Assembly (NCBI GenBank): GCA_031264185.1
Contig: JAISEL010000117.1
Coordinates: 1 to 51,206 of the forward strand
Direction of reading: 5' to 3'
Origin: Deltaproteobacteria bacterium
GTDB lineage: Bacteria > Desulfobacterota > Desulfarculia > Adiutricales > Adiutricaceae
Length of the DNA: 51,206 bases
The notes under the pieces were generated by a model. The model was not told where the DNA came from. It made no database searches and saw only the letters and a list, made by a program, of their open reading frames with translations. Below, in pieces: positions 3,248 through 50,527 of the stretch; the stretch's first letter is position 1; the number at the start of each line of letters is the position of its first letter. The position numbers and the translations under genes are program-made.

Positions 3248-3259
3248 TGGCTTTCTCCC

Positions 3260-21228: not shown

Positions 21229-24200
21229 CTAGAAAGTTAGCTTTGGCAGACTGTCCACAATTTTCATGGTATCCAGACTCACCGTGATAACCCGCAGAAT
21301 AAGATCAAGGATGTACCTGGGTTGGTTGTGTTCCTTAGCCCAGTCATTAGGATCGTTTTTAATCCCGCTTTTGGAGTCCACCTCAACTTGGTAGCGATCA
21401 AGAATCCATTCCACAGCCGAGCGTCCATTGATCACATAATCATAAGCTTCTAAAGGAATTCCGGTTATCCTGATGCTGGAATTGAACTGGATGGCTGTCT
21501 TGTCATATTTCCTGATGAAGCGGATTTTGTCAACTTTGAAGTTCTCTTTTTCTTCACCGGAAATTGTGACTTTGGAGTAAGGTTTGACGGTCTCATAGTT
21601 CAGATGAAGATCGGCTAAGACCCGGCCAGCTTTAGAAAAGGCCCGAAAATCTTCAGCCCGGTCCACCAAAGGAAGCCTTGGGAGCGATTTTTTCAGATCC
21701 GCAGAGAAAATCTCCCGGTAATCCGGCGAATGAAGAAGGCCGTAGACATAGTAAAAGATGTCATCTTTGGTGATTTTATTAGGACCGTATTTGGTCCGGC
21801 ATTCGCTAAATATAAAATTCGTGATTCCGTCATGCCGGATATAGCCGTCAATAATGTCATCAGACGGAAACATATCAGGACTTTTAGAAGTGTCTTCCTC
21901 ATAATAATAGCGAGGGAAGCATTGAGTGCCAGCATCCAGACAATTCAGGTCTGGAATCACATTAGAAATTAAGGCACTATTTTCTTTTGTTCCGCCAATT
22001 CCCGAGACACAAATAACTAAATTATGGTGATTTCTTGTGGGGAAAATGCTTGGTATTTTATATGTCCTTTCGTTCAATATTTTATCATAATAGATAAATT
22101 GTTTAAAAAATGGCCTATATAAAGCTGATAAAATCTTATTAGGTTTAAATAAAGACATATTATTTGCCGTGAGATTTTTTATTAATCCATCTGACAAACT
22201 AATCTTTTTTATATCATAGTATATAATATCATCCGTTACATCTTTATTTAATTGATTATTCACATTAATTATTAGGTTATTATAATAATCAGTTGTGTTT
22301 TTGATATTTTGGGTAAGTACTGCTTTTGACGAGTTATAGCACCATACATCACGCTGCGTTTTTAAGCCATTAGAATAAAAATCGCAAAAAAATGTATTTT
22401 TATTGTTTTTATCATGTTTATCTCCTATTGCTATTAATTCAGAAAATAAAACGCTCCTCTGATTGAGCCAATCTCCCATATCATTGGGAACTATTTTTTC
22501 CCATACCACACTTGAATCCAGAACATCGCGCCTTTCAGCGACTATGCCTAATTTTTTCTCCTTGGACAGATAATCGCCGATATCGTGATAAAAAATCTCG
22601 GCTGGTCCGCGATGTCTGGAGTTTTTGACCAGAACTGTTATAGCGATTGGAGTCCGACTGCCCAAACCAAAAACGTTACCAGCTTCCTTTCTACGTAATT
22701 CACCTGAAGTCCTGCAATTACCCCTTAAATCAAACACATAAATTTTGCTGAATTCCTCAGCCAAACACTTCCGCATGCCATCCATGGCGTTCCCGTCAAG
22801 CCAGCCGGAGTTGGAGACATAAGCAATCACCCCGCAGTCATTGGATGCTAAACGCTTTGAGGCCCAATAAAAGGCTTTTATATAGGAATCATAAAGAGAA
22901 TTTTTGTTATTAGCCTGTGACCTGGCGGCATAACTTGAAGCGATATCATAATCCAGTTCCGGATAAGGCTGGTTTTTAGCGTTCTTGTTGGCGTCCCCCT
23001 GTCCCACAGAATACGGCGGATTACCGAAAATAACCGTTATATGAGCTTTTTTTTGAGCCTCAACTCGTTTAGTATTTTGTTTCAACCGGAGATCTTTTAA
23101 TAAATCACTTTCTCCGCTTTTATAAAGCTGAAAAGTATCAGCCAGGCAGATTCCATCAAAAGGCAGGTAGGAGGCTTGGCTCCCAGCAGCCTCATGATAG
23201 GCGTTTTCAATGTTGATCGAAGCTATGTAATATGCGAGTAAAATTATTTCGTTAGCGTGAATTTCCTTTTTGTACTTACGGTTTAAGGATTTTCCCAAAA
23301 GGCCGGAATGAATCAGCCTGGTAATAAAAGTTCCGGTTCCGGCAAAAGGATCCAGGATATGAACGTTTTCATCGGAAATATCCCGCTTAAATTCCTTTTT
23401 AAGGACAGCGGCCACAGAATTGATAATGAAATCGACTACCTCAACCGGGGTGTAGACAATGCCAAGTTTTTCCACCGCTTTCGGCATCGCCGCCTTGAAA
23501 AAGCCGTCATACAAATTAAGGATAATCTTTTGACGTCCCTCCGATGACGTTATTTGGGCCACCTGATTTTTAACAGTCTCATAGAACCTGGTTAAAATAA
23601 TCCGGTCTTTCTCCAAGCCCTGATCTTCCAGAACATCTATCATCGCCTCAAGAGACCTGGAGACAGGATTATTCCGGACAAAAGAGTAATTCTCGAATAA
23701 AGCCTCGAAAACCGGTTTAGTGATAAGATGCTGGGCCAGCATCTCCGCAGCTTCCCCGGAATCAACTGAAGGATTAAGCGTTTTTCTCAACCCGGTCAGG
23801 AATTTATCAAACTCTTCCTTGTGGGGACCTTCTTTGGCCACAACTTTAGTAATGCGGTCCTTAAAACCCTCGGCTATTTTGGCCACATCTTTAGCCCAGA
23901 GGAGTAAATCCCGGTCACTGTTCATCTTTTTGACCAAGCGGGCGTAAATAGCCTTATGAAGAGCCGAATCATTTTCCCGAAGTCCGGCTAAAACGTCACC
24001 GGTAGTACCTCGGCAGGAAACATCTTCACCTAATTCCCCTTCCGACCGCGGCATCCCGCCTATCAGAATTGATCCGCCGCCAGCAGGGGCTTTTTCGTTA
24101 AATCTTATTTTATTAATTGTGGCCACAAACCGGTCATCGTGCGCTTTTAAAGCATTTAATACCTTCCAGACTGTCTGATAAGGCTTATTGTCGTTTAAGG

Positions 24201-26061
24201 CATCTCCCGGATCGACATAAGCCGGAACAACTACCGGAATTATGATATAGCCGTATTTTTTGCCCGGAGCTTTCCGCATAACCCGGCCAACTGACTGAAC
24301 AACCTCAATCTCGGAATTCTTGACGGCCAGAAACATGACCGCATCCAAAGTCGGGACATCCACCCCCTCGCTTAAACACCGGACATTAGTCAGAACCCGG
24401 CATTCTTTGGAGTCTTCAGGAACCTCTTTCAGCCAGGCCATTTTGCCGTCTCTGATTGAGGCTCCCATTGAGCCGTCAATATGATTGGCGGTCAGATTCA
24501 CAACCGGATTATTCCTGGACTGGTCTATTTTCCTGGAATAGTAAGCCGTCAGTCGGTTCATGACCTCGGAAATCCGGTTGGATTTGGCTATCGTCTGACA
24601 AAAAGCCACAGCTTTCCGCATAGGCTCAGGATCAGCCTGTTTTAAAATTTGGCCGTCAATATCCATGTTTTTGGACAGGGCATTGAGGCAGCCGATCAGT
24701 TTAGTCACATCATCAGCGTCAATCTCTTTTTTGCCGGCCGCCGCCTGGATTTGAATCTCTTCAGAGACTTCATTCCGGCTGACCGTAAAAACCAAACATT
24801 TATAATCGGACAAGAGACCATGGTCGACCGCTGTACCGAATCCAAGGCGGTAAACCACCGGACCGAAAAGACTTTCATCATCCATAGAGCAGAGAGTCGC
24901 CGAATACTCCTCAGCCCTGGTCCTGACTTCGTCTTTGTATATCCTGGGGGTGGCCGTCATGTAGAGACGTTTTTCCGCTTTTATGAAACTGCTGTCGTGG
25001 ACTTTTACGAATTCAGACTCGTCTTCATCGGATAAAGTAACCCCCGTGGTTCGGTGCGCCTCATCGGCAACAATCAGATTAACAGGCACCTTGGCCGCTT
25101 TAATGGCCTCAGCAGTGGCGGAAATAGACTGGTAAGTCGAAAATATCACTCGGAGCCGGTCCGGATGGCGTTCCGCCCCATGCTTCAGCTGCTTAACTAT
25201 GGTCCTTATATCGGTGCTGGCCGGCAGACTCAGATTTTCTACTCCGTACGTGTCCTCATCCAGATCTGACTTCCGATTGGATTTAGAGACCGTTGGATCG
25301 GAGCAGACACAGACAGGCCAGAGAGTTTTTTCGGCCTCGGCCGTCCATTCCTTGAGAGTTTGGCCTATTAAGGCAATTGAAGGGGCTAGGAAAAGCGCCA
25401 GTCCCTGACCTTTAGTTAAGGCCTCAGCTATTTTAAGGGAAGTAAAGGTCTTGCCGGTTCCGCAGGCCATAATCAGCTGACCTCGGTCAGAGGCTTTAAA
25501 GTGTTTTATAAAAGCAGCCAGAGCCTCTTCCTGATGGGGTAAAAGCGTCTTAGGAGCTTTTCTGGCTTTATGGCCAAAATCGCCTTTATCAAGCTTCTCC
25601 CAGTCAACCTCGGCGTTTTCCAGGTCATTCAGGCTAATTCTGGAGAACGGAATGCTCTGGTTCCTGATTTTCTCTTCAGCTCTGGCTGACCAATTGTTGC
25701 TGGTGGAGATCCACAGCCTTTGAGAGAAGGCGATTTTCCGGCCGTCGGAGGCTGTAAATTTCTGACCGCTGGCGGTCATGAAATTGCCCAAAGCGGACAG
25801 GTCAACCTCAGCGTCGGCCTGGTGGCACTTGCACTGAACAGCCCAATACTCTTCTTCTTCAGTTACTGCCACCAGGTCAATTCCAGTATCCTGACCGTCC
25901 CTGGCAGGCCAGTCAGACCAAAGCCATGTTTTTTTGAACTTTTGATCATAAACCTGATAAGTTTTCAGAAAATTAGCCATAAGCCGCTCAAACCGGCTGC
26001 CCTTTTCCTGTTGGGTCAACGATTCATGGCGGTATTTTTTTAGTACCTTTTGAAAATTCAT
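21229..26061 (-). CDS. Type ISP single-chain restriction-modification enzyme (LlaGI/LlaBIII-like)
   Basis: A 1610-residue protein carrying nuclease, motor and methylase in one chain. An Mrr-like nuclease comes first (GIDLVAVTEEEEYWAVQCKCH: Asp63, Gln77, Lys79). The SF2 helicase follows with Walker A MACGTGKTFT near 195, DEAH box VADEAHRTTG, MTATPR and motif VI VQSVGRVMRKAPG. A coupler leads to the gamma-type N6-adenine methylase with DPFAGTGTFITRL and the catalytic NPPYSVGQG, then the target recognition domain (about 1200-1600). Such enzymes translocate on DNA and cut when two converge. I use ATG 26061; a TTG precedes it. The region 22050-22450 within the recognition domain is far more AT-rich than the rest, a sign of domain exchange. 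The gene is a complete system by itself; dead transposons lie next to it. Confidence 0.93.
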   Translation of the reverse strand: MNFQKVLKKYRHESLTQQEKGSRFERLMANFLKTYQVYDQKFKKTWLWSDWPARDGQDTGIDLVAVTEEEEYWAVQCKCHQADAEVDLSALGNFMTASGQKFTASDGRKIAFSQRLWISTSNNWSARAEEKIRNQSIPFSRISLNDLENAEVDWEKLDKGDFGHKARKAPKTLLPHQEEALAAFIKHFKASDRGQLIMACGTGKTFTSLKIAEALTKGQGLALFLAPSIALIGQTLKEWTAEAEKTLWPVCVCSDPTVSKSNRKSDLDEDTYGVENLSLPASTDIRTIVKQLKHGAERHPDRLRVIFSTYQSISATAEAIKAAKVPVNLIVADEAHRTTGVTLSDEDESEFVKVHDSSFIKAEKRLYMTATPRIYKDEVRTRAEEYSATLCSMDDESLFGPVVYRLGFGTAVDHGLLSDYKCLVFTVSRNEVSEEIQIQAAAGKKEIDADDVTKLIGCLNALSKNMDIDGQILKQADPEPMRKAVAFCQTIAKSNRISEVMNRLTAYYSRKIDQSRNNPVVNLTANHIDGSMGASIRDGKMAWLKEVPEDSKECRVLTNVRCLSEGVDVPTLDAVMFLAVKNSEIEVVQSVGRVMRKAPGKKYGYIIIPVVVPAYVDPGDALNDNKPYQTVWKVLNALKAHDDRFVATINKIRFNEKAPAGGGSILIGGMPRSEGELGEDVSCRGTTGDVLAGLRENDSALHKAIYARLVKKMNSDRDLLLWAKDVAKIAEGFKDRITKVVAKEGPHKEEFDKFLTGLRKTLNPSVDSGEAAEMLAQHLITKPVFEALFENYSFVRNNPVSRSLEAMIDVLEDQGLEKDRIILTRFYETVKNQVAQITSSEGRQKIILNLYDGFFKAAMPKAVEKLGIVYTPVEVVDFIINSVAAVLKKEFKRDISDENVHILDPFAGTGTFITRLIHSGLLGKSLNRKYKKEIHANEIILLAYYIASINIENAYHEAAGSQASYLPFDGICLADTFQLYKSGESDLLKDLRLKQNTKRVEAQKKAHITVIFGNPPYSVGQGDANKNAKNQPYPELDYDIASSYAARSQANNKNSLYDSYIKAFYWASKRLASNDCGVIAYVSNSGWLDGNAMDGMRKCLAEEFSKIYVFDLRGNCRTSGELRRKEAGNVFGLGSRTPIAITVLVKNSRHRGPAEIFYHDIGDYLSKEKKLGIVAERRDVLDSSVVWEKIVPNDMGDWLNQRSVLFSELIAIGDKHDKNNKNTFFCDFYSNGLKTQRDVWCYNSSKAVLTQNIKNTTDYYNNLIINVNNQLNKDVTDDIIYYDIKKISLSDGLIKNLTANNMSLFKPNKILSALYRPFFKQFIYYDKILNERTYKIPSIFPTRNHHNLVICVSGIGGTKENSALISNVIPDLNCLDAGTQCFPRYYYEEDTSKSPDMFPSDDIIDGYIRHDGITNFIFSECRTKYGPNKITKDDIFYYVYGLLHSPDYREIFSADLKKSLPRLPLVDRAEDFRAFSKAGRVLADLHLNYETVKPYSKVTISGEEKENFKVDKIRFIRKYDKTAIQFNSSIRITGIPLEAYDYVINGRSAVEWILDRYQVEVDSKSGIKNDPNDWAKEHNQPRYILDLILRVITVSLDTMKIVDSLPKLTF

Positions 26062-26064
26062 CAA

Positions 26065-26550: not shown

Positions 26551-27429
26551 TTAGGTAGCCATCCCAATGACCGCAGCCATTTTTTTCTTAGTATGAGAGC
26601 AGAATGAAGCTGCCGCAGACTGCAATAAATAGTTAATGCGCTCAAATGCCTGCCCAACTTTAGCCATAAATGGCTCAATCAATATCTTTATCAGTCCAAT
26701 TGTCAGGACTTGTTGTGGTTCCTCAGGATAGGCTCTGATGTTAGGATTATTTACGGGCTGGCTGTTTTTAGCCTGGATTATTGCGTTACGATACTCATCT
26801 GCCGACACTGGAGATGCGATGACTGGGACAGGCCCGGGAGAATTCGTTGCGGCCGTTAACATACGCCTGAGTTTGATGATAAAAAGATGGGCAATTAAGG
26901 TAAAGAGCATATGCCGTCTCCAGGCCAGCTAAATTCTGACCTCATAGTGATCCGTTCCAAGATGCTTTTTGCATTCATTAAGACATTGCTCAATCGACCA
27001 TCGCATCAATGCCGGAGTGCGCGCCATCATATGCGCTGCGTCAGCAGACTCATTGCATACTGAGTACTTGACCGACCCGTCTTCCACCAATTGCCTCACG
27101 TAAAGCCATATGTCATTACCCGGCTTTTTGTCGCGTACTTCAACAACCTTAAGGCATTTATCTCTGGCTATGACCGGACCTTTGGCTCCAATGCCGAGCA
27201 CAACTTCTTCCCATGGAATACTTGGATCCGCTGCTATGTCGCTTGCCTTGCGTGGAGCAAACGCTGGAGACTCGTCCGGTTTTCGCCCCTGACCGCTATA
27301 CTTCGGAATCGTCAATGCCTTTGGCGCCGCTCTCACTGAACATTGTCTGGCCTTGCACGACGCTGACGGCAGCCGGCATCAGATCGGGAAGACAGCTTAC
27401 TGCAGCTGCGTTCAATTCCCGCAGACTTA
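26551..27429 (-). pseudogene. Decayed IS701-family transposase
   Basis: The minus strand encodes GRKPDESPAF, WEEVVLGIGAKGPVIARD, then MRWSIEQCLNECKKHLGTD and HYEVRI, followed by an in-frame TAG at 26931-26929 and, in the same frame, LAWRRHMLFTLIAHLFI. RWSIEQ...GxDHYEVRxWxxWxRH is the conserved end of IS701 transposases. Everything before about 27336 is out of frame or gone, and the 5' part is interrupted by the 89-bp MITE at 27430. Catalytic residues of the N-terminal half are missing. Dead element. Confidence 0.75.
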
Positions 27430-27518
27430 TTACCTCGGCGGATAATTTTGATACAAACAAATCATCATAAGGTAAAATCAATGAAGAAATAGATTATCAT
27501 AATAATCCGCCGAGGTAA
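27430..27518. mobile_element. 89-bp MITE derived from the IS630-like element
   Basis: Both ends are inverted repeats: TTACCTCGGCGGATAA at the left and, at the right, a TCCGCCGAGGTAA end. TA duplications flank it (27428-27429, 27519-27520). The left 24 bases and the right approximately 30 bases match the ends of the neighbouring IS630-like element (27670-28878), but there is no transposase. This is a non-autonomous derivative that could be moved by the full element. It sits inside transposase-like sequence, and a closely similar left end recurs at 50568. Confidence 0.8.
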
Positions 27519-27520
27519 TA

Positions 27521-27667
27521 TAAAACGCCGTACGGCGACGTTAATATTATGATGTATGCATATCAATCAGCTGAAGGCGGCGGAAGATATGTCCCCCTGG
27601 AGAGCAAGGCCCGTATGATTCTGAATTCGACACCCCTGTTCGCCAAAATGACATCCTCAAAGACGGC
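27521..27667 (+). pseudogene. Short transposase-like coding fragment trapped between two IS630-type elements
   Basis: The plus strand is open and reads KTPYGDVNIMMYAYQSAEGG, then RYVPLESKARMI and STPLFAKMTSSK. This looks like real protein, similar in style to ISKra4/UPF0236-type transposases (a cross-species sequence of the form GxxFxPLExxARI-TPxFAKM). Both sides are cut: by the MITE on the left and by the IS630-like element on the right. Family is uncertain. Confidence 0.4.
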
Positions 27668-27669
27668 TA

Positions 27670-28878
27670 TTACCTCGGCGGATAACTTTGATAAATCATA
27701 AACACAGTACCATTTAAGGATATTGTGGAATTAAAATTTTTTTATCCTTACCACAAACAGAAAATAGATATTGCATTATTTTTATTGCATAATCTACGCA
27801 TGAAAACAATTGAACCTGCCAACACAACAAAAACGTATCCGCAGATGATCAGAGACCGGGTGATTAGCCTCCATCGTCGGAATTTCCCGGCGCTCATCAT
27901 CGCTTTCATGTTACTTGTAAGCGTTCCTGCTGTCTGCCGCTGGGTTGAGCGGTATGAACTTGCTGGCGAGGAAGGGCTGGCGGCCAAAAAACGCGGCAGA
28001 CCTGTTGGCAATGGAAGGAAACTCTCTCCAGGACAGGAAGAAAACATTAAGGAATGCCTTTTGAATGGCGAACCAACTAAATTCGGACTAAACCATTCCG
28101 GTTGGTCAGGAAAGGCAGTTTCAGAACTCATTACGCAGCGTTTTAATATAGATGTTGCCGCAAGGACTGCCAGGGATTATTTGAAACGATGGGATTTTAC
28201 ACCGCAGCGCCCTGTAAAAAAGGCATATGAACAAGACCCTGAAAAGGTGAAGCAATGGCTTGAGTATTTTGAGGATACTAAAAGACGCGTAATGTCAAAT
28301 GGTTATCAGATATATTTTGCTGACGAATCAGGCATACGCACAGAAGACCATAAGACCAGGTCATATGCGCCGAAAGGCAAACGCCTGCAATTAAAAGCAG
28401 CGGAAAGAGATTAAAATTAAATATTATTTCTGCAATTTCTCTTAGTGGTTTGATGAAGTATATGACATATTTAGAGTCTATGACAGCTAAATTGTTCATC
28501 AAATTCATGAACAATATTGTTAGGAATTCAACAAAAAAAGTTTTTCTTGTCGTTGACAACCTGAAAATTCATCACGGAAAGCTTGTTCAAGCATGGTTAA
28601 AAGAGCGCTCCAATAAAATCGAGCTTTTTTCTTCCGCCGTATTCTCCGGAATTAGACCCTGATGAGTATTTAAACAATATTATAAAAAATAAAATGCAGA
28701 ATCTGCCGCAAGCTCATTCTCAGGATGAGCTGAATTCAAATGTACATGGAATTCTTAAACAATTGCAAAACGATTATTTAAAAGTTAAAAAAATTTTTGA
28801 CCATGATAAAATTAAATACGCGAAAGTCGAGACGAAACCAAAGAATAAATAGATTCTCATAATTGTCCGCCGGAGTAA
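27670..28878 (+). mobile_element. IS630-family insertion sequence (1209 bp)
   Basis: Ends are TTACCTCGGCGGATAA (27670-27685) and TTGTCCGCCGGAGTAA (28863-28878), imperfect inverted repeats, with TA on both outer sides (27668-27669, 28879-28880) as expected for this family. Length is normal for IS630. A second, inverted copy ends at 116. The transposase inside is broken, so this copy cannot move itself. Confidence 0.88.
27800..28852 (+). pseudogene. IS630-family transposase, two frameshifts
   Basis: Starts at ATG 27800. The N-terminus has a helix-turn-helix (VCRWVERYELAGEEGLAAKK), a linker RGRPVGNGRKLSPGQEE, then the DDE domain across three frames: YFADESGIRTEDHKTR (first Asp) ending in a stop at about 28414; VFLVVDNLKIHHGK (second Asp) in the next frame; and FFLPPYSPELDPDEYLNNI (Glu) in a third, from about 28636 to the TAG at 28852. 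All three catalytic residues still exist, so decay is recent. A programmed frameshift at the first junction is possible but two shifts make a pseudogene more likely. Confidence 0.85.
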
Positions 28879-29068
28879 TATCAGTCGCTGAACTCCTATG
28901 CTCCGTTCGCTGTGGCTGCCAGTCACAATAAATGTTCCCTGGCAGCCCGGATCTTAAGTTACCTTAATGCCCAAATGCATTGAATAAGCTATAATAATAA
29001 AGCCCGTCTGAAAAAGTAAATAAAAACCCCCGATCTCCAGTCCTGGCCTTTACAGTTTCAGCCAAAAA

Positions 29069-30487
29069 CTATCTGTTTTCCACCTGGATGAACATATTTC
29101 TGTCTCCGCGCCGAATCCACAGCAAAACCGGGTCCCCTTTAGGCGATTCAGACAAAAGACGCCTGAATTCATTGCGACTGGCAAACCCCTGCCGGTTGAC
29201 TTCCATAATAATATCCTGAACCATGACTCCGGCCTCGTCAGCCGGGGAATCGGCGGCCACTTGGTCGACATATAAGCTCCCAAAAGGCAGCTTGAGCCTT
29301 CTGGCGGCGGCCTCCGGGATTTCTTTAAAGGTCAGTCCCAGATCCGGAAAGGCCGAACCTGCCGGCCCAGACATGAGATCCTGGAACCTGTTTTCCAAAC
29401 GCTCCACCGGAATTTTAAGGGAGGTCAATTGTCCGTTCCGGTAAAACTCAGCAGTTACCTCCTGGCCGGCCGGCCGGTAAAGGAAAGCGCGTTCCAGTTC
29501 AATCGGAGAGGTGATCTCGCGGCCGTCAATTTCGACAATAATATCTCCGGGTTTAAGACCGGCTTTTTCGGCCATGCTGCCTTTGACCACTTCCGAAACA
29601 AGAGCCCCTTTGGCCTCTTTAATCCCAAAACCTTTGGCCAGATCCTCCGTCATTGTCTGGGTCAGGACCCTCAACTGGCCTCTGTCCACCAGGCCTTTGC
29701 TTTTAAGCTGTTCGGCTATTTGGGCCACAACAGGAGCCGGTATGGCATAACCCATTACATCAAGATCCGGCAGGTTTATAAAATTAATCCCCACTACCCG
29801 GCCGCGTCTGTCAATCAAAGGCCCGCCGCCGCTGCCCGGAAAAAACCGGGTGTTAATTTCCAGATGACTCTCGGAGCCCAGACCCGGTAACTGGCGGCCG
29901 CGGCCGGCCAGTTTCCCGAACGTGACTGTCTGGCCCATTCTTGCCGAGTAACCGATTAAAATTAAATCATCTCCCAGCTTGACTTCATCCGGGTCCCCCA
30001 TGGTCAAAAAACTGTAGTTTCCTGGTTCGGACAGTTTAAGAAGGCCGAGCCCGGATAAGAAGTCAGCCCCGACTAATTCAGCCTCCAGTTCCCGACCGCT
30101 TTCTAAAATGACCGCGATGGTCTCGGCGCCGTCCACAGCTAACTGAGAAGTCAGGATATAGCCTTCCCTGTCCCATATGATCCCAGCCGCCGCCCTGTCC
30201 ACCGCCGGCGGTTCAAAGAAGAAAGGACGTCCGAACGGTCCGGGGAAAGGCCGGACATTTCTTTCCCGAATTTTACGGCCAATAACTGTGACTACCCCTG
30301 GTTTGGTCAGGTTGACGGCCTCTTCCAAAGACAACTCCGGCCCCGTGCTCCCTGGCGGTGAGGACTGGGCCGCTGAAGGCGCCTCGTGACGTGGCCGGCT
30401 GCCCTGGCCGACCGCAGCCCCGGCTGGCCAGAGTAAAACCAAAACCACAATAGAAAAAAGAAGAAAATTTGCGGCCATCTTTGTCAT
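29069..30487 (-). CDS. DegP/HtrA-like PDZ protein with all three catalytic residues replaced
   Basis: A 472-residue exported protein: signal peptide at 1-27, trypsin-like domain about 50-245, PDZ1 about 250-345, PDZ2 about 375-470. Alignment to DegP by eye shows the usual TNNHVVD as TSQLAVD (His to Leu116), the SDIAL segment as SGLGL (Asp to Gly146), and GNSGG as GSGGG (Ser to Gly220). The rest of the domain is well kept (MGYAIPAPVVAQIAEQLKSK, TVTFGKLAG), and PDZ carboxylate loops (KAGLKPGDIIVEIDG, EAGVMVQDIIMEV) look intact. So it cannot be a serine protease, but may be a periplasmic chaperone or scaffold. The gene is intact and single, with an ATG at 30487. Confidence 0.9.
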   Translation of the reverse strand: MTKMAANFLLFSIVVLVLLWPAGAAVGQGSRPRHEAPSAAQSSPPGSTGPELSLEEAVNLTKPGVVTVIGRKIRERNVRPFPGPFGRPFFFEPPAVDRAAAGIIWDREGYILTSQLAVDGAETIAVILESGRELEAELVGADFLSGLGLLKLSEPGNYSFLTMGDPDEVKLGDDLILIGYSARMGQTVTFGKLAGRGRQLPGLGSESHLEINTRFFPGSGGGPLIDRRGRVVGINFINLPDLDVMGYAIPAPVVAQIAEQLKSKGLVDRGQLRVLTQTMTEDLAKGFGIKEAKGALVSEVVKGSMAEKAGLKPGDIIVEIDGREITSPIELERAFLYRPAGQEVTAEFYRNGQLTSLKIPVERLENRFQDLMSGPAGSAFPDLGLTFKEIPEAAARRLKLPFGSLYVDQVAADSPADEAGVMVQDIIMEVNRQGFASRNEFRRLLSESPKGDPVLLWIRRGDRNMFIQVENR

Positions 30488-31016: not shown

Positions 31017-31610
31017 TTAGCTGCTTTTGGCCAGACGATCTACGAAGTTCAAATTCAGGTACAGGTCCCCCCGTTGAGCTGTTTTTGGGTCATAGGAACC
31101 GGCCCCTTTAAGCCGGATTTTTCCGGACCGGACCATTTCAGGGCTGACTTTAACTTCCAGGTGACTGAACTTGTCCGCATGTCCGGTGCCGCCGCAACGG
31201 GAACAAGGAGTAGGCCGGTAAACCGAACCGTAATTCAGCTGGGTCAAAGTATGCCCCTGACCGAAACAGCGGGGACAGGCTTCTTCCGAAGTCCAGGGGA
31301 CTGTTATTTTAAAGGAGCCTTTCTTTTTGACCAGGGCCAGATCATAGTAAACGTCAAGGCCGTTCCTGGTCCGGTTAAGAAACTGAAAAGGTGTCTGACC
31401 CAAAAGTTCGCCGCTTTTTTGATTAGACCGGGCCTCGGACAGAAGTTTTTGGTAAGCCTCATAGGCTGTCCGGAACTTCACGGTGTTTCCGCCGTTTACG
31501 CCGCTGTCCGGATGGTTCTCTCTGGCTAACTGCCGGAAAGCCGCCTTGATTTCAGCCTCAGTCGCTCCGGCTCTGACGTTTAGGTCCTGGCAGGACTGGA
31601 TGTTATTCAT
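31017..31610 (-). CDS. Short DnaJ-like J-domain protein with one zinc site
   Basis: A 197-residue co-chaperone. The J-domain is at the N-terminus (ATEAEIKAAFRQLARE, HPD at 33-35), which stimulates DnaK ATPase. There is no Gly/Phe stretch; instead a linker leads to two CxxCxGxG repeats, CPRCFGQGH (Cys112, Cys115) and CSRCGGTGH (Cys136, Cys139), which can bind one zinc ion; canonical DnaJ has four repeats. The tail (VKVSPEMVRSGKIRLKGAG, GDLYLNLNF) is a single substrate-binding-like unit. It is about half the size of DnaJ. Similar short proteins occur beside DnaK systems in some bacteria. GGAGGC lies upstream of ATG 31610. Confidence 0.85.
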   Translation of the reverse strand: MNNIQSCQDLNVRAGATEAEIKAAFRQLARENHPDSGVNGGNTVKFRTAYEAYQKLLSEARSNQKSGELLGQTPFQFLNRTRNGLDVYYDLALVKKKGSFKITVPWTSEEACPRCFGQGHTLTQLNYGSVYRPTPCSRCGGTGHADKFSHLEVKVSPEMVRSGKIRLKGAGSYDPKTAQRGDLYLNLNFVDRLAKSS

Positions 31611-32874: not shown

Positions 32875-33051
32875 GTACAGGTTCCTTTCAGGACCAATAG
32901 GGAACTCCGTGAAAATCGGAGGCGGACCCACCGCTGTAATCGGGGACTTCCGGAACATTACCGCCATAATCGGGTAACAAAAAGCCACTGGCTAATAACT
33001 GGGAAGGCTTGTTCCGGAGGCTTGAGCCGAGAGCCAGAAGACCTGCCTGTA
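32875..33051 (+). ncRNA. Cobalamin (B12) riboswitch
   Basis: The element has the conserved core in order: P1 strand GTACAGG with partner CCTGTAT at the end; GGTTCC; AATAGGGAA, CCGTGAAAATCGG; the highly conserved GGCGGACCCACCGCTGTAA; GCCACTGG ... GGGAAGGC; and the B12 box GCCAGAAGACCTGCC at 33033-33047. It binds adenosylcobalamin or another cobalamin and represses downstream genes. A separate terminator at 33147-33176 provides the expression platform. Confidence 0.93.
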
Positions 33052-33146
33052 TCATTGCCGGAACAGACGGTTTTGCGGACTGAACCGACCGGCGACCCGG
33101 ATATTTCCGGGCCGATTTCCATATCGCGGGATAAATATTGGGTAAT

Positions 33147-33176
33147 CCCGGATTGTCACAATCCGGGGTTTTTTTT
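33147..33176 (+). terminator. Riboswitch-controlled intrinsic terminator
   Basis: CCCGGATTG-TCA-CAATCCGGG forms a perfect 9-bp stem followed by G and eight T (33169-33176). It lies between the riboswitch and the first gene. When cobalamin is bound this hairpin should form and stop transcription. An alternative pairing with the upstream CCGGATATTTCCGGG stretch is the likely antiterminator, not proven here. Confidence 0.85.
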
Positions 33177-33204
33177 GCCCCGAACGCAATATTTGTTGCC
33201 AACT

Positions 33205-33966
33205 ATGGAAAAAATCCTCCTTTACTCTTGGACCGTTATTTTCGGACTGGCCTTTTTCCTGGCGCTACCCAGCAAAACCGGACCCGCCTCAACTAACCTG
33301 GCCAAATTGGGCGCCCTGGTGGCCCTGGGCTATATCTTTGTCCGTTATTACCGGGCCTGGCCCATGACTCCGATGTTTATGGGTTCGGTGGCCGTGGCTC
33401 CGTTTCTGGTGATTTTCGGTCTGATTACCTTTTCGAAAGGCAGTCTCCCTGGCCGGAATTTAGGCAGGGGCCTGGTCTTTTTCCTGGCTTTTTTCCTGGG
33501 AATTTTGGCCACTGTCTGGCCCAAGGATTTTTACCTGCCCTTTTTAAAAACCGCCTCCATTTTTTCCCAAGCTCATCTGGCCTTTAATTTTTTGGGCAAA
33601 GCGGCCTTTTTAATATCCGGCATCTGGGGACTTCTGGCCCTTTTAACTAAAAACCCCAAAGCCGACAGCCAAATCCGACTGTGGCTGGCCGTCGGCTTTG
33701 TTTTCTGGACCATGTCCATGCTGACCGGAGAGGTCTGGTCGTATTTGGGCTGGGGACTGCCGGTTGTCTGGGATGAGGCAGTCATAGTCTGCTTTATGGC
33801 CACCTGGTTTTTTTACACCGCCCTTCTCCATCTTTTTTTAACCGGCCGGCACCCTGCAATCCGCCAAATTTTAGCCGCATCCGGCTTAATCTGGATTGTG
33901 GTCATCAACATCCTGCCCGACCTGGGACCTACTCGCTGGCCCCCGGAATTATCTGGACTCTGGTGA
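33205..33966 (+). CDS. CcsA/ResC-like membrane protein (haem-handling WWD family)
   Basis: About 253 residues from ATG 33205; an upstream in-frame extension would lie inside the riboswitch and terminator, so I reject it. At least seven membrane helices are visible. The tryptophan-rich WSYLGWGLPVVWDEA matches the WWD haem-binding segment of CcsA/CcmC, and histidines (FSQAHLAFN, LLHLFLTG) lie in flanking loops. In CcsA the protein delivers haem to apocytochrome c with ResB. Here it opens a cobalamin-repressed operon with metal or corrinoid transport and chelatase genes, so its cargo may be haem-like or a corrinoid. That role is inference. Confidence 0.8.
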   Translation: MEKILLYSWTVIFGLAFFLALPSKTGPASTNLAKLGALVALGYIFVRYYRAWPMTPMFMGSVAVAPFLVIFGLITFSKGSLPGRNLGRGLVFFLAFFLGILATVWPKDFYLPFLKTASIFSQAHLAFNFLGKAAFLISGIWGLLALLTKNPKADSQIRLWLAVGFVFWTMSMLTGEVWSYLGWGLPVVWDEAVIVCFMATWFFYTALLHLFLTGRHPAIRQILAASGLIWIVVINILPDLGPTRWPPELSGLW

Positions 33967-33970
33967 GCCT

Positions 33971-34834
33971 GTGGCCACAGTACCCGGCGGAATTTTAAAA
34001 CTGTTAAAAAAAATCTGGACTGTTTCGGGCCACCTGGATCTGGCCGTAGCCATCTGCCTTTTACTGGCCGTTGATGCGGCTTTAGCCTACCCCCTCATCC
34101 AAAAGCATCTGACAACTTTCATTCCCTTAGGTGAAGTGGGCCTCATTACCTGGGTCACCACTTACGGCCGCTACAATCTCGGCCACACCTTCTGGTTCTA
34201 CGGCCTCATGCTCGGCCTTATTCTGCTGGGAATTAATACTTTTGTCTGCACCACCAACCGGGTCTGGGCCATTTTAGGACCTAAAAGGCGCCGGAAGGGC
34301 TGGCTTTATAAACTGGGGCCGCACATTATGCACTACGCCGTTTTAGTCATGGTCTCAGGCTATCTGGGCAGCTATACCCTTGCCCAGGCTTTGCCTGGCC
34401 GGGCTTTAATTCCCGACGGACCGCCTCTGAAACTGCCCGGAGAACTGGGGTTTTTATCGGTATCCGTAGAAAATCCGGTTGTCTATCAAGGCCAAAGACT
34501 GCCTTTTTTTGACAACTGGTTTTTAGATCCCGGCTTTCAGCTGACATTCACGGGTCCTGACGGCCGGACAGTCAAAAAACACGTTGCTTACAATAAGCCG
34601 GCCAGATATCGGGGCTACAATTTTTATCTGTCTGATTTTTATCCGAAAAACTCGGTCTCCCAGGGCATGGCCGGCTACAAGACCGTCAAACTCTCTATCC
34701 GGCGGGACCCTGCGGCCATAGTCTATATGGTCGGCATTTTACTGTTTGCCTGCGGCATTATAGTCTATTTGGCCGATCTTTACCGAAAATCCCGCCTCAC
34801 TTCGGCCAAGGAGAAACCCCATGAAATATCTTAG
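33971..34834 (+). CDS. ResB-like membrane protein
   Basis: About 287 residues from GTG 33971, four bases after the preceding stop; the frame is open further upstream but would overlap the CcsA-like gene. Helices near the N-terminus (DLAVAICLLLAVDAALAYPL), mid (HTFWFYGLMLGLILLGINTF) and after the PHIMHYAVLVMVSGYLGS segment, a periplasmic beta-rich domain (LSVSVENPVVYQGQRLPFFD, PARYRGYNFYLSDFYP) and a final helix (AIVYMVGILLFACGIIVYL) match ResB. With CcsA it forms System II cytochrome c synthase. The stop lies 14 bases inside the next gene, showing translational coupling. Confidence 0.8.
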   Translation: MATVPGGILKLLKKIWTVSGHLDLAVAICLLLAVDAALAYPLIQKHLTTFIPLGEVGLITWVTTYGRYNLGHTFWFYGLMLGLILLGINTFVCTTNRVWAILGPKRRRKGWLYKLGPHIMHYAVLVMVSGYLGSYTLAQALPGRALIPDGPPLKLPGELGFLSVSVENPVVYQGQRLPFFDNWFLDPGFQLTFTGPDGRTVKKHVAYNKPARYRGYNFYLSDFYPKNSVSQGMAGYKTVKLSIRRDPAAIVYMVGILLFACGIIVYLADLYRKSRLTSAKEKPHEIS

Positions 34835-35993
34835 TCTCCTGTTAATTCTTCTCCTGTCCTGGCTCAGTCTGGGCTGCTCATCGTCGGAGACCCAGTCGGC
34901 TGCGGCTACCCGTCTGGAATTGACCGATGAAAATGTTGATCCCCAAAATACCGCCTATGACGGGTCAGCCGGATTTTTAAATGTCGGCGAGTACTCGCTG
35001 ATCAAAAAAACCGGCTATACCGAAGTCCACGACGGGGCCGGCCGGACCATGGCCTTAGTGCCCAGAGGTCAGCCCCATCCCCCTGGCTTCGAACCGACTA
35101 TGGTCATTGAAACTCCGGTCCAAAGAGTGGCTGTTTACAGTTCTTTTGATGTGGCCATGCTGAACGTTTTGGGTCAGGCCGATACAATCGTGGCCCTCAC
35201 CTCTCCGCCTGAGGCCTGGCATATTGATTACATCAAAGAAGGCTATGATTCCGGCCGGATTGTCTTTGTGGGCGACTCCGGGGCCGTTGACTACGAACTC
35301 ATCAAGGCCCAGCATCCGGATATGGTCATGACCTGGGATCCTTCTATTGTACCCATGATGGATACTCTGGGCATTCCGGTACTGGTTACTTCCACTCCAG
35401 TGGCCACCTGTTTAAGCACCCAGATCCGTTTTGTGGAGTTTTTGGCCCCTTTCTTCGGAGAAGAGGAAAAAGCGCACGCTTTCTACGGCCGGGTCAGAAA
35501 ATCCCTGGCCGATATCCGGGCCAAAACAGCGGGGCTTCCCAAACCTAAGGCCATGTGGGGCGACATTTACGAAAAAAGAGTCCTGGTGGAACCGGGCAAT
35601 GCCTGGGTGGCCGAACTAATCGGACTGGCCCAGAGCGATTATCTTTTTGACGATGTCTACGGCACTTCGTGCATTGAAGTTTCCATTGAAAGATTTCTGT
35701 ACAGCGGCCGGGACGCCGATCTCTACTTTACTTACCGCTCCGTCGGTCAGGGCGTTTATTCCAAAGAAGCCCTGCTGAGAATAAATCCTCTTTTGGAGGG
35801 CCTGAAACCATTATCGGCCGAAGGCCGGGCCCTGGCGCCCAGACCGGTCTACTCCCAGTCGGCTGACCGCTTGGACGAACTTTTGACCGAGATCGCGGCC
35901 ATCCTCCACCCGGAAGCCTATCCCGGCTATGAACTTAAATATTTCGTGGAACTACCGGTCAAGGATGTTCCCCGTACTGACGGAGAAAGCTGA
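34821..35993 (+). CDS. FecB/BtuF-like periplasmic metal or corrinoid-binding lipoprotein
   Basis: A 390-residue lipoprotein: lipobox LSLGC with Cys19, then Asp/Glu-rich linker. The binding domain begins VQRVAVYSSFDVAMLNVLGQ, with later YELIKAQHPDMVMTWDPSIV, TPVATCLSTQIRFVEFLAPF and the C-terminal lobe through YLFDDVYGTSCIEVSIERFL. This is the class III (FecB/BtuF/FhuD) binding fold. RBS AAGGAG before ATG 34821. It feeds the following permease/ATPase. Ligand is not determinable by sequence, but the cobalamin riboswitch upstream points to a corrinoid or cobalt complex rather than iron. Confidence 0.88.
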   Translation: MKYLSLLLILLLSWLSLGCSSSETQSAAATRLELTDENVDPQNTAYDGSAGFLNVGEYSLIKKTGYTEVHDGAGRTMALVPRGQPHPPGFEPTMVIETPVQRVAVYSSFDVAMLNVLGQADTIVALTSPPEAWHIDYIKEGYDSGRIVFVGDSGAVDYELIKAQHPDMVMTWDPSIVPMMDTLGIPVLVTSTPVATCLSTQIRFVEFLAPFFGEEEKAHAFYGRVRKSLADIRAKTAGLPKPKAMWGDIYEKRVLVEPGNAWVAELIGLAQSDYLFDDVYGTSCIEVSIERFLYSGRDADLYFTYRSVGQGVYSKEALLRINPLLEGLKPLSAEGRALAPRPVYSQSADRLDELLTEIAAILHPEAYPGYELKYFVELPVKDVPRTDGES

Positions 35994-35998
35994 ACGTC

Positions 35999-37045
35999 AT
36001 GGAAGCTGTGTTAAACGCCAAACTTTTCACCCGCAGGCTGGCCGGCCGGCGGGTTGCGGTTTTCTATGCCCTGGGGGCCCTGACCCTCTTTCTGGTAATT
36101 CTGAACCTCTGCATAGGTTCTTTGAGTTACCCGGTTCATCAGGTAGCGGAAGGTCTGTTTCACCCTTATGAAAACAGCGATCTGTCGTTTATTATCTGGA
36201 AAATCAGGCTGCCCCGGACCCTGGCCACAGTTATGGGCGGGGCTTATCTGGCCGCCTCGGGACTCCTGCTCCAGGTCTATTTCCGCAACCCCATTGTCGG
36301 ACCTTTCATTTTAGGCATCTCCTCTGGGGCCACCCTGATGGTTTCCCTGGTCATGCTGACATCCTTAGGTCTCCAGCTGACATATATAACCCCTTTTCTG
36401 ACCACCATTGCCGGCTGCTTAGGCGCATACGGAGTCATGATTTTAGTCGTGGCCATTGCCGCCAAAGTCCGCCAGGGGGCCACGCTTTTAATTGTCGGTC
36501 TGATGATGGGCTACCTGTGCGGAGCCGTGACCTCAATTCTGACAGCCTTAGCCGAAAAAGAAAAAATCAAAGGCTTCATCCTCTGGGGTATGGGCAGCTT
36601 TTCCGGATTTAAATGGATTGAAATAGGCATCATGGCATTTTTGGGCGGGGGTCTTGTTCTGGCCATATTTTTACTGTCCAAACCATTAAACGCCTTCCTG
36701 CTGGGGGAGGATTACGCCGCCTCCATGGGCGTCAACATCCGGCGCTTCAGACTCTTTATCCTCATGGCCGCCTCGGCTTTGGCCGGACTGGTTACGGCGA
36801 TGGCCGGACCGGTGGCTTTTATCGGTCTGGCCGTTCCCCATATGGCCCGTCTGTCATTCGGCACTTCCGACAACCGCGTTTTAGTGCCAGGCGCCTGCCT
36901 CATGGGGGCGGCGGTTACCAGCCTGTGCGATCTCATAGCCCGGATGTGGCTTAATCCGGTGGAACTGCCTATCTCGGCCATTACAGCCTTTTTCGGAGCC
37001 CCGATCGTCATCGGCCTGCTTCTGAAACGCGGAGCCCGGATGTAG
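35999..37045 (+). CDS. FecCD-type ABC transporter permease (BtuC-like)
   Basis: A 348-residue permease with about ten helices. FecCD signatures: IRLPRTLATVMGGAYLAASG, FRNPIVGPFILGISSGATL, LVVAIAAKVRQGATLLIVGL, FILWGMGSFSGFKWIEIGI, the coupling region AASMGVNIRRFRLFI and GPVAFIGLAVPHMARLSFG. Starts at ATG 35999, five bases after the binding-protein stop. It forms the inner-membrane channel of the importer. Confidence 0.95.
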   Translation: MEAVLNAKLFTRRLAGRRVAVFYALGALTLFLVILNLCIGSLSYPVHQVAEGLFHPYENSDLSFIIWKIRLPRTLATVMGGAYLAASGLLLQVYFRNPIVGPFILGISSGATLMVSLVMLTSLGLQLTYITPFLTTIAGCLGAYGVMILVVAIAAKVRQGATLLIVGLMMGYLCGAVTSILTALAEKEKIKGFILWGMGSFSGFKWIEIGIMAFLGGGLVLAIFLLSKPLNAFLLGEDYAASMGVNIRRFRLFILMAASALAGLVTAMAGPVAFIGLAVPHMARLSFGTSDNRVLVPGACLMGAAVTSLCDLIARMWLNPVELPISAITAFFGAPIVIGLLLKRGARM

Positions 37046-37110
37046 TCACCCTGATTTAAACACCAGATGTCTTCTCCGGACGATCTGTCCGGCGGGAGAG
37101 GATTGACATA

Positions 37111-38313
37111 ATGCCAGAACCAAAAAGTATTTCCCAACCTCCTTTACTGGAAATAAAAAGCCTTACGGTGGGCTATAAATCCCCCATCGTGACCGGCATA
37201 TCCATGGCCTGCGGCCGGGGTCTCTTTGTTTCACTGCTGGGCGCCAACGGCTCGGGCAAAACAACTCTTCTGAGGACCGTCTCCAAGCACATAAAGCCTT
37301 TAGCGGGCCAGGTCTTTATTAACGGACAGTCTCTTTCGTCGGTCAAAACATCAGACCTGGCCCGGGTCATGAGCGTGGTTTTAACCGACCGGTCCTCGGT
37401 ACCTATGCTCCGGGGCCTGGAATTTGTGGCCCTGGGCCGGCATCCCCACTCGGACTTTTTAGGCCGGCTGACGGATGCGGATTTATCGGTCGTGGAAAAG
37501 GCCCTGGAATCTGTCAAAGCGGCCGATTTAGCTGAGAGATTCATTGACGAACTGTCCGACGGCGAACGCCAGAAAATAGTCCTGGCCCGAGCTCTGGCCC
37601 AGGAGCCCAAACTGATGCTTTTAGATGAGCCCACCGCCCATCTGGATCTTAAGCACCGGCTGGAAGTTCTGGGCATCCTGAGGGGCCTGTGTCAGAAACG
37701 GGAACTGACCGTCTTAGCCGCCCTGCACGACGTGGAAGCGGCAGCCAAAGTCTCCGATTTGGTTGTGACCATTAAAGACGGCCGTCTGACCGGTTTCGGG
37801 CCATCGGAACAGATCCTGACCCCGGAAGCGGTTAAAGAACTGTACGACTGTCCCCATGCCAATTATGACAGTCTTCTGGGGAGTTTAGAGATGGCTCCCG
37901 ACGGCCGGGCAGGCCGGGCATTTGTTCTGGGCGGCCGGGATACGGCCGCTTTGATTTACCGGCTTCTGGCCAAAAAAGGTTACAGCCTCATTTCCGGCTT
38001 TTTTCTGGAGTCCGACCTCGACGCCCACGTAGCTGCAGCTTTAGGCGGCACAGTCTTTTCTTTTAAGGACGGGGAGAATCCGCCGGAAGAAAAGTTTTTA
38101 GCCGAAAGCTTAAAGGAACTTCAAAACGCGGCCATCATGGTTCAGGGACCGGCCGGTGGGCCCCTGCCGGATCTTCGGCAAAGACTGGTCTCTGAAGCTA
38201 AAAACAGGGGCATCCCCGTTTTGACCGTGGGGCCGGACGGGGATTTGGGCCCTTTAATGGCCTCCTTGAAAAAACTGGATGACGGCCAGGGCCTGATCAA
38301 ATCGGCGGCTTAA
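37111..38313 (+). CDS. ABC importer ATPase (FecE/BtuD-like) with an extra C-terminal domain
   Basis: A 400-residue protein. The ATPase domain (about 10-255) has Walker A GANGSGKTT (44-52), signature LSDGERQKIVLARAL, Walker B LMLLDEPTAHLD and the H-loop AALHDVE. Typical FecE/BtuD proteins are about 250 residues; here an additional 140-residue C-terminal domain (from about 265, beginning GRAFVLGGRDTAALIYRLLA) looks like an alpha/beta nucleotide- or ligand-binding fold (TVFSFKDGENPPEEK, GIPVLTVGPDGDLGPL). It may sense the substrate or nucleotide state. 65 bases follow the permease. Confidence 0.93.
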   Translation: MPEPKSISQPPLLEIKSLTVGYKSPIVTGISMACGRGLFVSLLGANGSGKTTLLRTVSKHIKPLAGQVFINGQSLSSVKTSDLARVMSVVLTDRSSVPMLRGLEFVALGRHPHSDFLGRLTDADLSVVEKALESVKAADLAERFIDELSDGERQKIVLARALAQEPKLMLLDEPTAHLDLKHRLEVLGILRGLCQKRELTVLAALHDVEAAAKVSDLVVTIKDGRLTGFGPSEQILTPEAVKELYDCPHANYDSLLGSLEMAPDGRAGRAFVLGGRDTAALIYRLLAKKGYSLISGFFLESDLDAHVAAALGGTVFSFKDGENPPEEKFLAESLKELQNAAIMVQGPAGGPLPDLRQRLVSEAKNRGIPVLTVGPDGDLGPLMASLKKLDDGQGLIKSAA

Positions 38314-38315
38314 TC

Positions 38316-40370
38316 ATGTCAGAGCCCAATAGCCTGAACACGTCCCTGAAAAGGCAGATTTTTCCTTTAGCCGCTTTAGTCGGGCAGGCTGAACTTAAAA
38401 AAGCCCTGCTGCTCGCGGCTGTAAATCCCCTGTGCGGGGGCGTCCTGATCCGGGGCGAAAAAGGCACGGCCAAATCCACGGCCGCCAGGGGACTTACGGA
38501 AATATTGCCGCCCATTACGGCTGCCGTGGGCTGCCCTTACGGCTGCGAACCCGATAAGCCACAAACCTGGTGCCCTTATTGCCTGGCCAGGGGGGATAAA
38601 AACGTCTGGCAGGAAAAACCCCGGCCTTTTCTGACCCTGCCCTTGAACGCCACCGAAGACCGGGTGGCCGGGGGGCTGGATTTTGAAGTCGCCTTAGGCC
38701 AGGGGACCCGCCGCAACAATCCCGGCCTTTTGGCCCAGGCTCATCGGGGCCTCCTGTACATAGACGAGGTCAACCTATTGGACGATCACATCGTGGACAT
38801 TATTCTGGATGCGGCGGCCAGCGGCTTTAATACTCTGGAGCGGGAGGGGCTTTCTGTTTCTCATCCGGCCCAGTTTCTACTCATCGGCACCATGAATCCG
38901 GAGGAAGGTGAATTAAGGCCCCAGTTTTTAGACCGGTTCGGCATGTCGGTCCAGGTAATCGGGGAAAAAGAGCCCGAACTCCGGGTTGAACTAATCGTTC
39001 TGAGAGAGCAGTTCGAAGCCGATCCCGAAGGATTCCGGGCCAGATACCTGGAGCAGACCGAAACTTTAAAAGAAAAGGTAATCAAGGCTCAGCACTTTCT
39101 GCCCATGATTGAGATCCCCGAAAGGGTCCGCAAATTTATGGCCCAGATAGCCGCCGAACACCACGTGGCCGGCCATAGGGCCGATCTCTTTTTAGAGCAG
39201 GCGGCCAGCGCCCTCTGCGCTTTAAACGGCCGGAGGATCTTATCCGAAGCCGAAGTTCTGGAAGTGGCCCCCTTAGTTCTGGCCCACCGCCAAAGAGAGA
39301 GTGCGCCCCCGCCTCCCCCGCCGCCCCCGCCGCCGACGGAACCTCCGGAACAGCCGGAGCCGGAAGACAGCGACGAAAAGCCTCAGGAGGAAAAGCCGGA
39401 CGAAGACCGCCCGGAAAATAAGGAGCCCCCTGAGCCGGAACAGCCTGAGCCCGGGGACCAGCCGGAGGATCCCCCCGACCGGCCGGAGCTGCCGCCTTTG
39501 GATCCGGAAGGGCTCATGGAGCAGATCTTTGAAATCGGTCAGACATTTAAAGTCCGGCGGATTGATACAGCCAAAGACCGCCTCCGACGACGCGGCTCCG
39601 GCCGGAGATCGAGAAGCCGGGTCAGCCAGAAACAGGGCCGCTACGTTAAAAGCGGACCAGACGACGGGCTGGGCGACATTGCTTTGGACGCCACCATCCG
39701 GGCGGCCGCCCCTTACCAGAAGTCCCGGACCTGTCCGCCGGGTCTGGCGCTGGCCTTAGAGCCTTCAGACATCCGTTCGGCTATCCGGGAAAAGAAGATG
39801 GGGCACCATCTGTTCTTTACGGTCGACGCTTCCGGTTCCATGGGCGCCAGAGGGCGCATGGCCGCCGCCAAAGGAGCCATCATGTCGCTCCTTTTAGACG
39901 CTTACCAGAAAAGGGATCAGGTCTCTTTAGTCAGTTTCCGTCGCAACGAGGCGGTCATTAATCTGCCCTTAACGACATCGGTCGACCTGGCCGGCAAACT
40001 CCTGGCCGAAATGCCGGTTGGCGGCCGGACGCCGCTGTCCCAGGGACTGGCTGTAACGTTCCGGGAAGTCAAAAACGTTCTGGTCAAAAATCCCCTGGCC
40101 CGGCCCATTGTCATTTTAATTACCGACGGCCGGGGCAATGTCTGCCTGGACGGCCGTCCGGACCAGAATCCTCTGAAGGAGGCCTGGACATTGGCCTCAT
40201 TGATGGCCAAAGAGCATCGGGTGAAATACCTGGTCGTGGACACCGAGGAAGCGTCATTAGTGGCTTTCAATCTAGCCGCCCGCCTGGCTGACGCTCTGGG
40301 TGCCAATTACTTTAAGATCGGAGAGCTTAAGGCTCAGACTTTACTGGACATAGTCAAACAGGAATTTTAG
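38316..40370 (+). CDS. Chelatase AAA+ subunit with VWA domain (BchI-BchD fusion type)
   Basis: A 684-residue protein of the Mg/Co-chelatase motor type. An AAA+ domain (1-320) has Walker A GEKGTAKST (47-55), Walker B LLYIDEVNLLDDH and TMNPEEGELRPQFLDRF. A cysteine-rich insertion (CPYGCEPDKPQTWCPYC) is common in the CobN-associated subgroup. A proline/glutamate-rich linker (about 328-400, including a run of eleven prolines) leads to a basic patch (RLRRRGSGRRSRSR) and the C-terminal von Willebrand A domain with MIDAS DASGSMG near residue 505. It would drive metal insertion with a large CobN/BchH subunit, which is not in the window. It begins three bases after the ATPase gene. Confidence 0.92.
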   Translation: MSEPNSLNTSLKRQIFPLAALVGQAELKKALLLAAVNPLCGGVLIRGEKGTAKSTAARGLTEILPPITAAVGCPYGCEPDKPQTWCPYCLARGDKNVWQEKPRPFLTLPLNATEDRVAGGLDFEVALGQGTRRNNPGLLAQAHRGLLYIDEVNLLDDHIVDIILDAAASGFNTLEREGLSVSHPAQFLLIGTMNPEEGELRPQFLDRFGMSVQVIGEKEPELRVELIVLREQFEADPEGFRARYLEQTETLKEKVIKAQHFLPMIEIPERVRKFMAQIAAEHHVAGHRADLFLEQAASALCALNGRRILSEAEVLEVAPLVLAHRQRESAPPPPPPPPPPTEPPEQPEPEDSDEKPQEEKPDEDRPENKEPPEPEQPEPGDQPEDPPDRPELPPLDPEGLMEQIFEIGQTFKVRRIDTAKDRLRRRGSGRRSRSRVSQKQGRYVKSGPDDGLGDIALDATIRAAAPYQKSRTCPPGLALALEPSDIRSAIREKKMGHHLFFTVDASGSMGARGRMAAAKGAIMSLLLDAYQKRDQVSLVSFRRNEAVINLPLTTSVDLAGKLLAEMPVGGRTPLSQGLAVTFREVKNVLVKNPLARPIVILITDGRGNVCLDGRPDQNPLKEAWTLASLMAKEHRVKYLVVDTEEASLVAFNLAARLADALGANYFKIGELKAQTLLDIVKQEF

Positions 40371-40407
40371 TTTTTTTCCCTACGCACTTTAATTTTCAGG
40401 ATTATTA

Positions 40408-41445: not shown

Positions 41446-41501
41446 CAGATCTCGCTAAAAAATCCTAAATGATCTATATTGCAGACCGTAAGGAGCGAGC
41501 T

Positions 41502-42338: not shown

Positions 42339-42780
42339 GCCGGACTCAGCCGACTTCAACAGGTCAGCGCCCTGTAACGGCTAACTTGCCGGATAAAGAC
42401 GCCTCAGCCCGATCCAAGCCTCCGGGGCTGCAAATTATTTTTATCAAGGATGCCGACTGCTCCTTACCCATGGTCAGGTCTTACTCTCTCGCTTTATATA
42501 ATATCCATGCCGGGAATTCGGCGTTTCAAGCTAGTTTATTGGCGATGAAATTCGGTTGCCCCTCCCATATGCGTCCGCAGCTTTTATATCAAAAAAAACT
42601 TCCGTGGCAGCCCGTCAAGAGCGGCCATAGCCTGTAAACGTTCAGGAATAAAAGTATCCGGGCGGCAAAGATCACCTGCGCCGCCGGGTTCCGGCCGCGG
42701 CTGCCGCCGCCGGGGCGCCGCCCCTTATCAGCAGCCGGGGAATAAAGCTTCCGGACTGGCGGGTGACGAAGACCCCGGCC
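42339..42780. other. Decayed interval after the ABC-2 ATPase
   Basis: A 100-codon plus frame overlaps the ATPase stop (TTG at 42335 to 42637) and reads LQIIFIKDADCSLPMVRSYS in its middle. It has no clear family and no permease-like helices. It might be the relic of an ABC-2 permease or a CobN N-terminus; I cannot decide. Downstream of it, 42650-42780 is GC-rich and broken in all frames. Confidence 0.3.
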
Positions 42781-42945
42781 GGTATCAGGGAAAAGCGTCT
42801 GGGCAGCTGCCTTGCTCTTCACTGCGGACGCCAGCTGCTCATCGGGCGCCAAAAGGCGCAGGGCCGCCTCCAAAGGGTCCATCATGTGCGGGCTCAGATG
42901 CCTGTCAGGAGCCGGATCGAATTTCGCTGATCGCCTTTGCCCATA
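42781..42945 (+). pseudogene. Relic of a second VWA chelatase subunit
   Basis: In shifting frames the sequence reads IREKRLG, then LFTADASCSSGAKRRRAASK with GSIM, then DACQEPDRISLIAF. These align in order with IREKKMG, LFFTVDASGSMGARGRMAAA and DAYQKRDQVSLVSF of the intact VWA subunit (nucleotides about 39778-39941). The MIDAS serine is lost and several frameshifts occur. This is a dead paralogue, now about 70 percent similar by eye. An overlapping 157-codon minus frame is a shadow. Confidence 0.75.
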
Positions 42946-50387: not shown

Positions 50388-50527
50388 AAATTTATTAAAT
50401 TTAAGTGATTGTTAAATTTAATAAATAAATTTATAAAATTTATAAATTCCATATTGACCACACACTTTATTATAATATATATGTATATTTATTTTACTAT
50501 TTTCAGTTAATATAAATTGATTTTACA

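Follow-up and report, generated by a model that had tools for sequence, protein, structure and literature searches.

A gene derived from degP, at positions 29069..30487 on the minus strand of the window (the whole 51,206-nucleotide stretch of contig JAISEL010000117.1 analysed here), is best read as encoding a DegP pseudoprotease peculiar to this species, with a role in binding, whether as a chaperone, an adaptor or a regulator of active paralogues. The open reading frame has 472 codons and a stop, begins with ATG and contains no internal stop. A predicted signal peptide (approximately residues 1-28, 30404..30487, minus strand, like all the features of this gene given below; MTKMAANFLLFSIVVLVLLWPAGAAVGQ), judged by eye and with a layout shared by the homologues, would imply a periplasmic location. 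An S1 domain (residues 99-255, 29723..30193; Pfam Trypsin_2, E value 5.9e-23) and two PDZ domains, PDZ1 (residues 256-365, 29393..29722) and PDZ2 (residues 366-472, 29072..29392), both matching PDZ_2, make up most of the protein. This succession of domains, together with the predicted export, is that of the Do/DegP family, and was recovered both by Pfam and in the structure model. The score against TIGR02037 (Do family serine endopeptidase) was nevertheless 253.7 bits, below the curated cut-off of 416.2, and the His-Asp-Ser triad of a Do/DegP endopeptidase is missing.

To locate the triad columns, the protein was aligned directly with E. coli DegP and with 48 sequences of homologues belonging to the same taxonomic family. 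The catalytic His (DegP H105) is replaced by Leu116 (TTA, 30140..30142), the Asp (DegP D135) by Gly146 (GGG, 30050..30052) and the Ser (DegP S210) by Gly220 (GGC, 29828..29830), preceded by Ser219 in place of Asn. These are exactly the three substitutions, with the same residue numbers, that had been proposed in a sequence-only reading of this DNA. In the relatives, the first column is always His except for one Tyr, the second is always Asp and the third is Ser except for one Tyr, and the corresponding codons are CAC or CAT, GAT or GAC, and nearly always TCN. The codons of the window gene differ from those usual in the relatives by three (TTA), two (GGG) and two (GGC) nucleotides; none is a one-step change, and the loss therefore does not stem from one recent error. 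Rereading of the three codons restored no part of the triad, and sequencing error was rejected on the basis of these multi-step changes. The substitutions extend to the surrounding motifs (NNH to SQL, PKTD to FLSG and NPGNSGG to FPGSGGG) and to the loops around residues 180-186 and 201-216. Neither of the two Asn residues that precede the His remains, the Asn in the GNSGG motif and the NPFGL loop are gone, and so is most of the strand preceding the Ser. Many barrel glycines and core positions of the S1 domain are retained, as is Arg198 (29894..29896), the counterpart of DegP Arg187 in loop L3. The protein has only two His residues (H34, in the disordered N-terminus, and H208) and no Cys, and therefore cannot form a substitute dyad. 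The residues present support the view that the protein cannot be a serine protease of the DegP family.

Structure prediction, one of the checks proposed in the sequence-only reading, was performed with AlphaFold2 and 46 relatives, and yielded a predicted DegP/DegQ fold with a confidence comparable to that of an active paralogue (mean pLDDT of 81.5 versus 79.9). In the S1 domain, most blocks lay near or above 90, except for the active-site loops, where the active paralogue dips similarly. The best PDB matches found by Foldseek were E. coli DegP (3mh6, 3cs0 and 3otp) and DegQ (4ynn and 3pv5, including Legionella). The intact predicted fold indicates compatibility rather than proof, as much of it is supplied by the alignment of active relatives. 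The window protein thus resembles DegP and DegQ in its signal peptide, S1 domain, two PDZ domains, colinearity over the full length and PDB fold matches, but differs from them in that it has none of the triad residues, retains only about half of the conserved S1 positions, scores below the TIGR02037 cut-off and has a short LA loop.

A second check, the search for an active DegP paralogue, revealed two in the same genome, a draft of 166 contigs. Both have intact triads and TIGR02037 scores above the cut-off: one on contig C65 (clade A, 464 bits) and one on contig C130 (clade C by synteny, 459 bits). The window protein is 36-39% identical to them. No orthologue of the window gene was found in genome contigs, viral contigs, plasmids, the whole class or 395 genomes of the phylum; the closest relatives in these searches were ordinary DegP proteins with at most 43% identity, the best matches being in the same genus, and the gene is known from one draft assembly only. 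In the phylogenetic tree, the window protein grouped within the clade formed by the DegP paralogues of the genus (SH-aLRT 97-99). Approximately unbiased (AU) tests rejected neither clade A (p = 0.107) nor clade C (p = 0.417) as its source, clade B was the best placement, without support, and trees based on the PDZ domains or the S1 domain only did not settle the question. Five sister species carry a clade B degP gene beside CarD-like, RluD-like and DUF456 genes. In the genome studied, the matching neighbourhood (contig C116) has undergone rearrangement and contains no degP. This hints, but no more, that the window gene could be the clade B copy after displacement; the trees do not discriminate between this origin and the others.

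Broken triads were also found in the clade C orthologues of two sister species. In one (L021, contig C169 of genome G019) the His is replaced by Tyr, and in the other (L048, contig C26 of genome G018) it is the Ser that is replaced by Tyr, with TAT as the codon in both cases. The GNSGG motif is altered as well (PGGSGG and PGGYGG, respectively), and the proteins are otherwise conserved. These genes occupy a syntenic locus different from that of the window gene, and the triad is intact in their orthologue from the window's genome. They share with the window protein the genus, the family and a broken triad, but have lost a single triad residue each in a conserved S1 domain, whereas the window protein has lost all three together with much of the rest of that domain.

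The explanation that we favour, with a probability of about 0.5 for the reading as a whole, is that of a client-binding chaperone or adaptor. An extra DegP copy would have arisen by duplication inside the genus and would now lie at a new locus; proteolysis would have been wholly lost, and selection would have retained the copy for binding proteins in the periplasm. After export, the protein would assemble into HtrA trimers, whose PDZ domains and empty S1 clefts would capture envelope proteins, either unfolded or clients, to hold them (chaperone) or hand them to the active paralogues of DegP (adaptor). Both protease and chaperone activity are established for E. coli DegP (PMC3081313); for the window protein, the chaperone role is one that we infer. 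The occurrence in one draft assembly and the lack of an orthologue in the searched genomes count against this reading. No sequence feature of the protein favours a chaperone or scaffold over regulation of the active paralogues.

In such a regulatory alternative, which we regard as possible but tentative, the dead copy would pair with an active DegP paralogue, in mixed trimers or cages or by trans-activation, and control its proteolysis. By analogy, MamO is the closest functional precedent: this HtrA pseudoprotease of solved structure activates proteolysis by MamE without catalysis of its own, and duplications yielding one dead copy recur among magnetosome HtrAs (PMC4794232). Like MamO and the inactive MamE copies, the window protein is HtrA-derived, has a degenerate triad and is encoded in frame beside active copies (PMC4794232), here the two catalytic paralogues on C65 and C130. 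It also retains the L3 Arg and the PDZ domains, and a DegP paralogue has separately lost one triad residue in each of two sister species, which keep active copies. Against this stand the 36-39% identity to the paralogues, which makes mixed trimers uncertain, and the absence of any linkage between the window gene and an active degP gene. Furthermore, all characterised HtrAs are homo-oligomers according to a review (PMC11642142), and mixed assemblies would therefore be new. The window protein is not itself a MamO: this identity was rejected, since the score against NF040961 was 47.2 bits, versus a cut-off of 800, and the surface di-histidine site is absent. MamO keeps His116 and Asp149, has Thr in the Ser position and binds metal through the di-His (PMC4794232), whereas the window protein has lost all three triad residues and, with only H34 and H208, could not form such a pair. 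No magnetosome genes were found among the window genes examined, and a search of the genome for MamP, the sole mam gene searched, gave only PDZ matches to the DegP genes, none above the cut-off. Among plant Deg/HtrA proteins, AtDeg16 and the second domain of AtDeg7 are predicted to be inactive, a triad residue being missing (PMC3473262); they resemble the window protein in being of HtrA type with a mutated triad, but are eukaryotic and differ in architecture, and AtDeg16 lacks only the Asp. Compared with the documented HtrA pseudoproteases, the window protein stands out by the loss of all three residues and by its position outside any evident magnetosome context.

A bolder version, which we consider unlikely, would place the dead DegP in mixed cages with active paralogues, where it would balance holding against degrading, other species of the genus evolving the same division from a different paralogue. 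If true, general quality control of the envelope would have a pseudoprotease subunit dedicated to it, in a setting other than magnetosomes. To our knowledge, experimental work on HtrA pseudoproteases comes mainly from magnetosomes, and binding versus cutting by DegP has otherwise been addressed with the engineered S210A mutant. A DegP copy devoid of the catalytic apparatus but retaining the fold and the PDZ domains would constitute a natural separation of the two activities, and the repeated triad losses among the DegP paralogues of one genus suggest a division of labour that is biochemically testable.

Another alternative is decay, in which the gene would be a surplus copy under relaxed selection on its way to becoming a pseudogene. 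Conservation was compared between domains, with conserved columns defined by at least 93% conservation among 42 family homologues (82 columns in S1 and 26 in the PDZ domains). The window protein keeps only 40 of the 82 S1 columns, whereas no other homologue keeps less than 89%, the lowest of them having 75 of 84. It keeps 21 of the 26 PDZ columns (15 of 19 in PDZ1 and 6 of 7 in PDZ2), a significantly higher proportion than in S1 (Fisher's exact test, p = 0.006). One of the PDZ1 losses, the replacement of the carboxylate-loop Gly by Arg (G273R), may weaken peptide binding. The terminal branch of the window protein reached 10 in the S1 tree, apparently the limit of the program, versus a median of 0.10, and 1.56 in the PDZ tree, versus a median of 0.25 (approximately sixfold). 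The S1 branch being far longer than the PDZ branch, constraint was lifted mainly from the catalytic domain. Such an extreme branch length could also be caused by relaxed selection, and decay has in its favour, in addition, the conserved positions lost throughout S1, the remnant of an IS-like transposase lying about 200 bp away and the lack of orthologues. The frame is nonetheless intact, without a single indel relative to the active C65 paralogue over residues 99-372 (274 residues), the PDZ domains are constrained, and GC1, GC2 and GC3 in each domain resemble those of the host genes. When neutral substitution was simulated from the window sequence, a stop-free frame survived with a probability of about 0.02 at 0.1 substitutions per site; at 0.2, every one of the 400 runs had acquired a stop. 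These divergences lie far below the gap between the window gene and any relative (43% identity at best). Neutral drift would thus yield stops well before the observed divergence, and the frame was therefore preserved as the catalytic site altered; the multi-step triad changes likewise appear old enough for a neutral frame to have broken. Decay consequently seems improbable.

From its frame and constraint, we consider it very probable that the window gene encodes a selected non-proteolytic protein; with an HtrA fold and a non-functional site, the product would be an HtrA pseudoprotease in the broad sense. The selected non-proteolytic role advanced in the sequence-only reading is upheld by the absence of stops, the absence of indels over residues 99-372, the host-like codon composition and the neutral simulation, but the chaperone or scaffold role that it offered as an example was not established. 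Its description of the frame as otherwise intact holds for the frame itself and for the lack of indels, but not for the S1 domain, with half of its conserved positions lost, or for the PDZ1 loop. An assembly error or contaminant sequence, compatible with a gene unique to one draft of 166 contigs, is very improbable, given that a cluster on this contig shares synteny with five sister genomes (54-86% protein identity), that GC3 of the window gene is in line with that of its neighbours, that its best matches are within the same genus and that each triad substitution involves several nucleotide changes.

The window gene is flanked on one side by the IS-like transposase remnant and on the other by a DnaJ-like gene present in duplicate, and is next to a conserved cytochrome-assembly, iron-transport and chelatase cluster. 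In the stretches read from the sister genomes at the corresponding site, neither degP nor the DnaJ-like gene is present. The DnaJ-like gene (31017..31610, minus strand) encodes a short protein with a J domain and reduced zinc-finger and C-terminal parts. It is included in a duplication of about 750 bp, the other copy of which, on contig C162, is 87% identical; it need not belong to the same system as the DegP gene. Similar short DnaJ genes occur across the family in one or more copies. The transposase remnant is an IS630-like (HTH_33/DDE_3) element (27428-28890) with a broken transposase frame and decayed inverted ends, and related ends were also found at positions 1-118 and 50516-50571 of the window. 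Positions 21229-26064 (minus strand) encode a single-chain Type ISP restriction-modification enzyme of 1611 aa, with Mrr nuclease, helicase, methylase, coupler and specificity domains and a GC content below that of its neighbours. An integrase adjoining a DNA methylase gene and a GmrSD-type (DUF262) gene (815-5788, minus strand) has the appearance of a small defence island carried by an integrated element. The genus-conserved cluster (33022-45253, plus strand) contains cytochrome c assembly genes, a siderophore/cobalamin-type ABC importer, two chelatase-type AAA genes (ChlI/ChlD-like), an ABC transporter and a TonB receptor, and is possibly involved in metal or tetrapyrrole uptake and processing.
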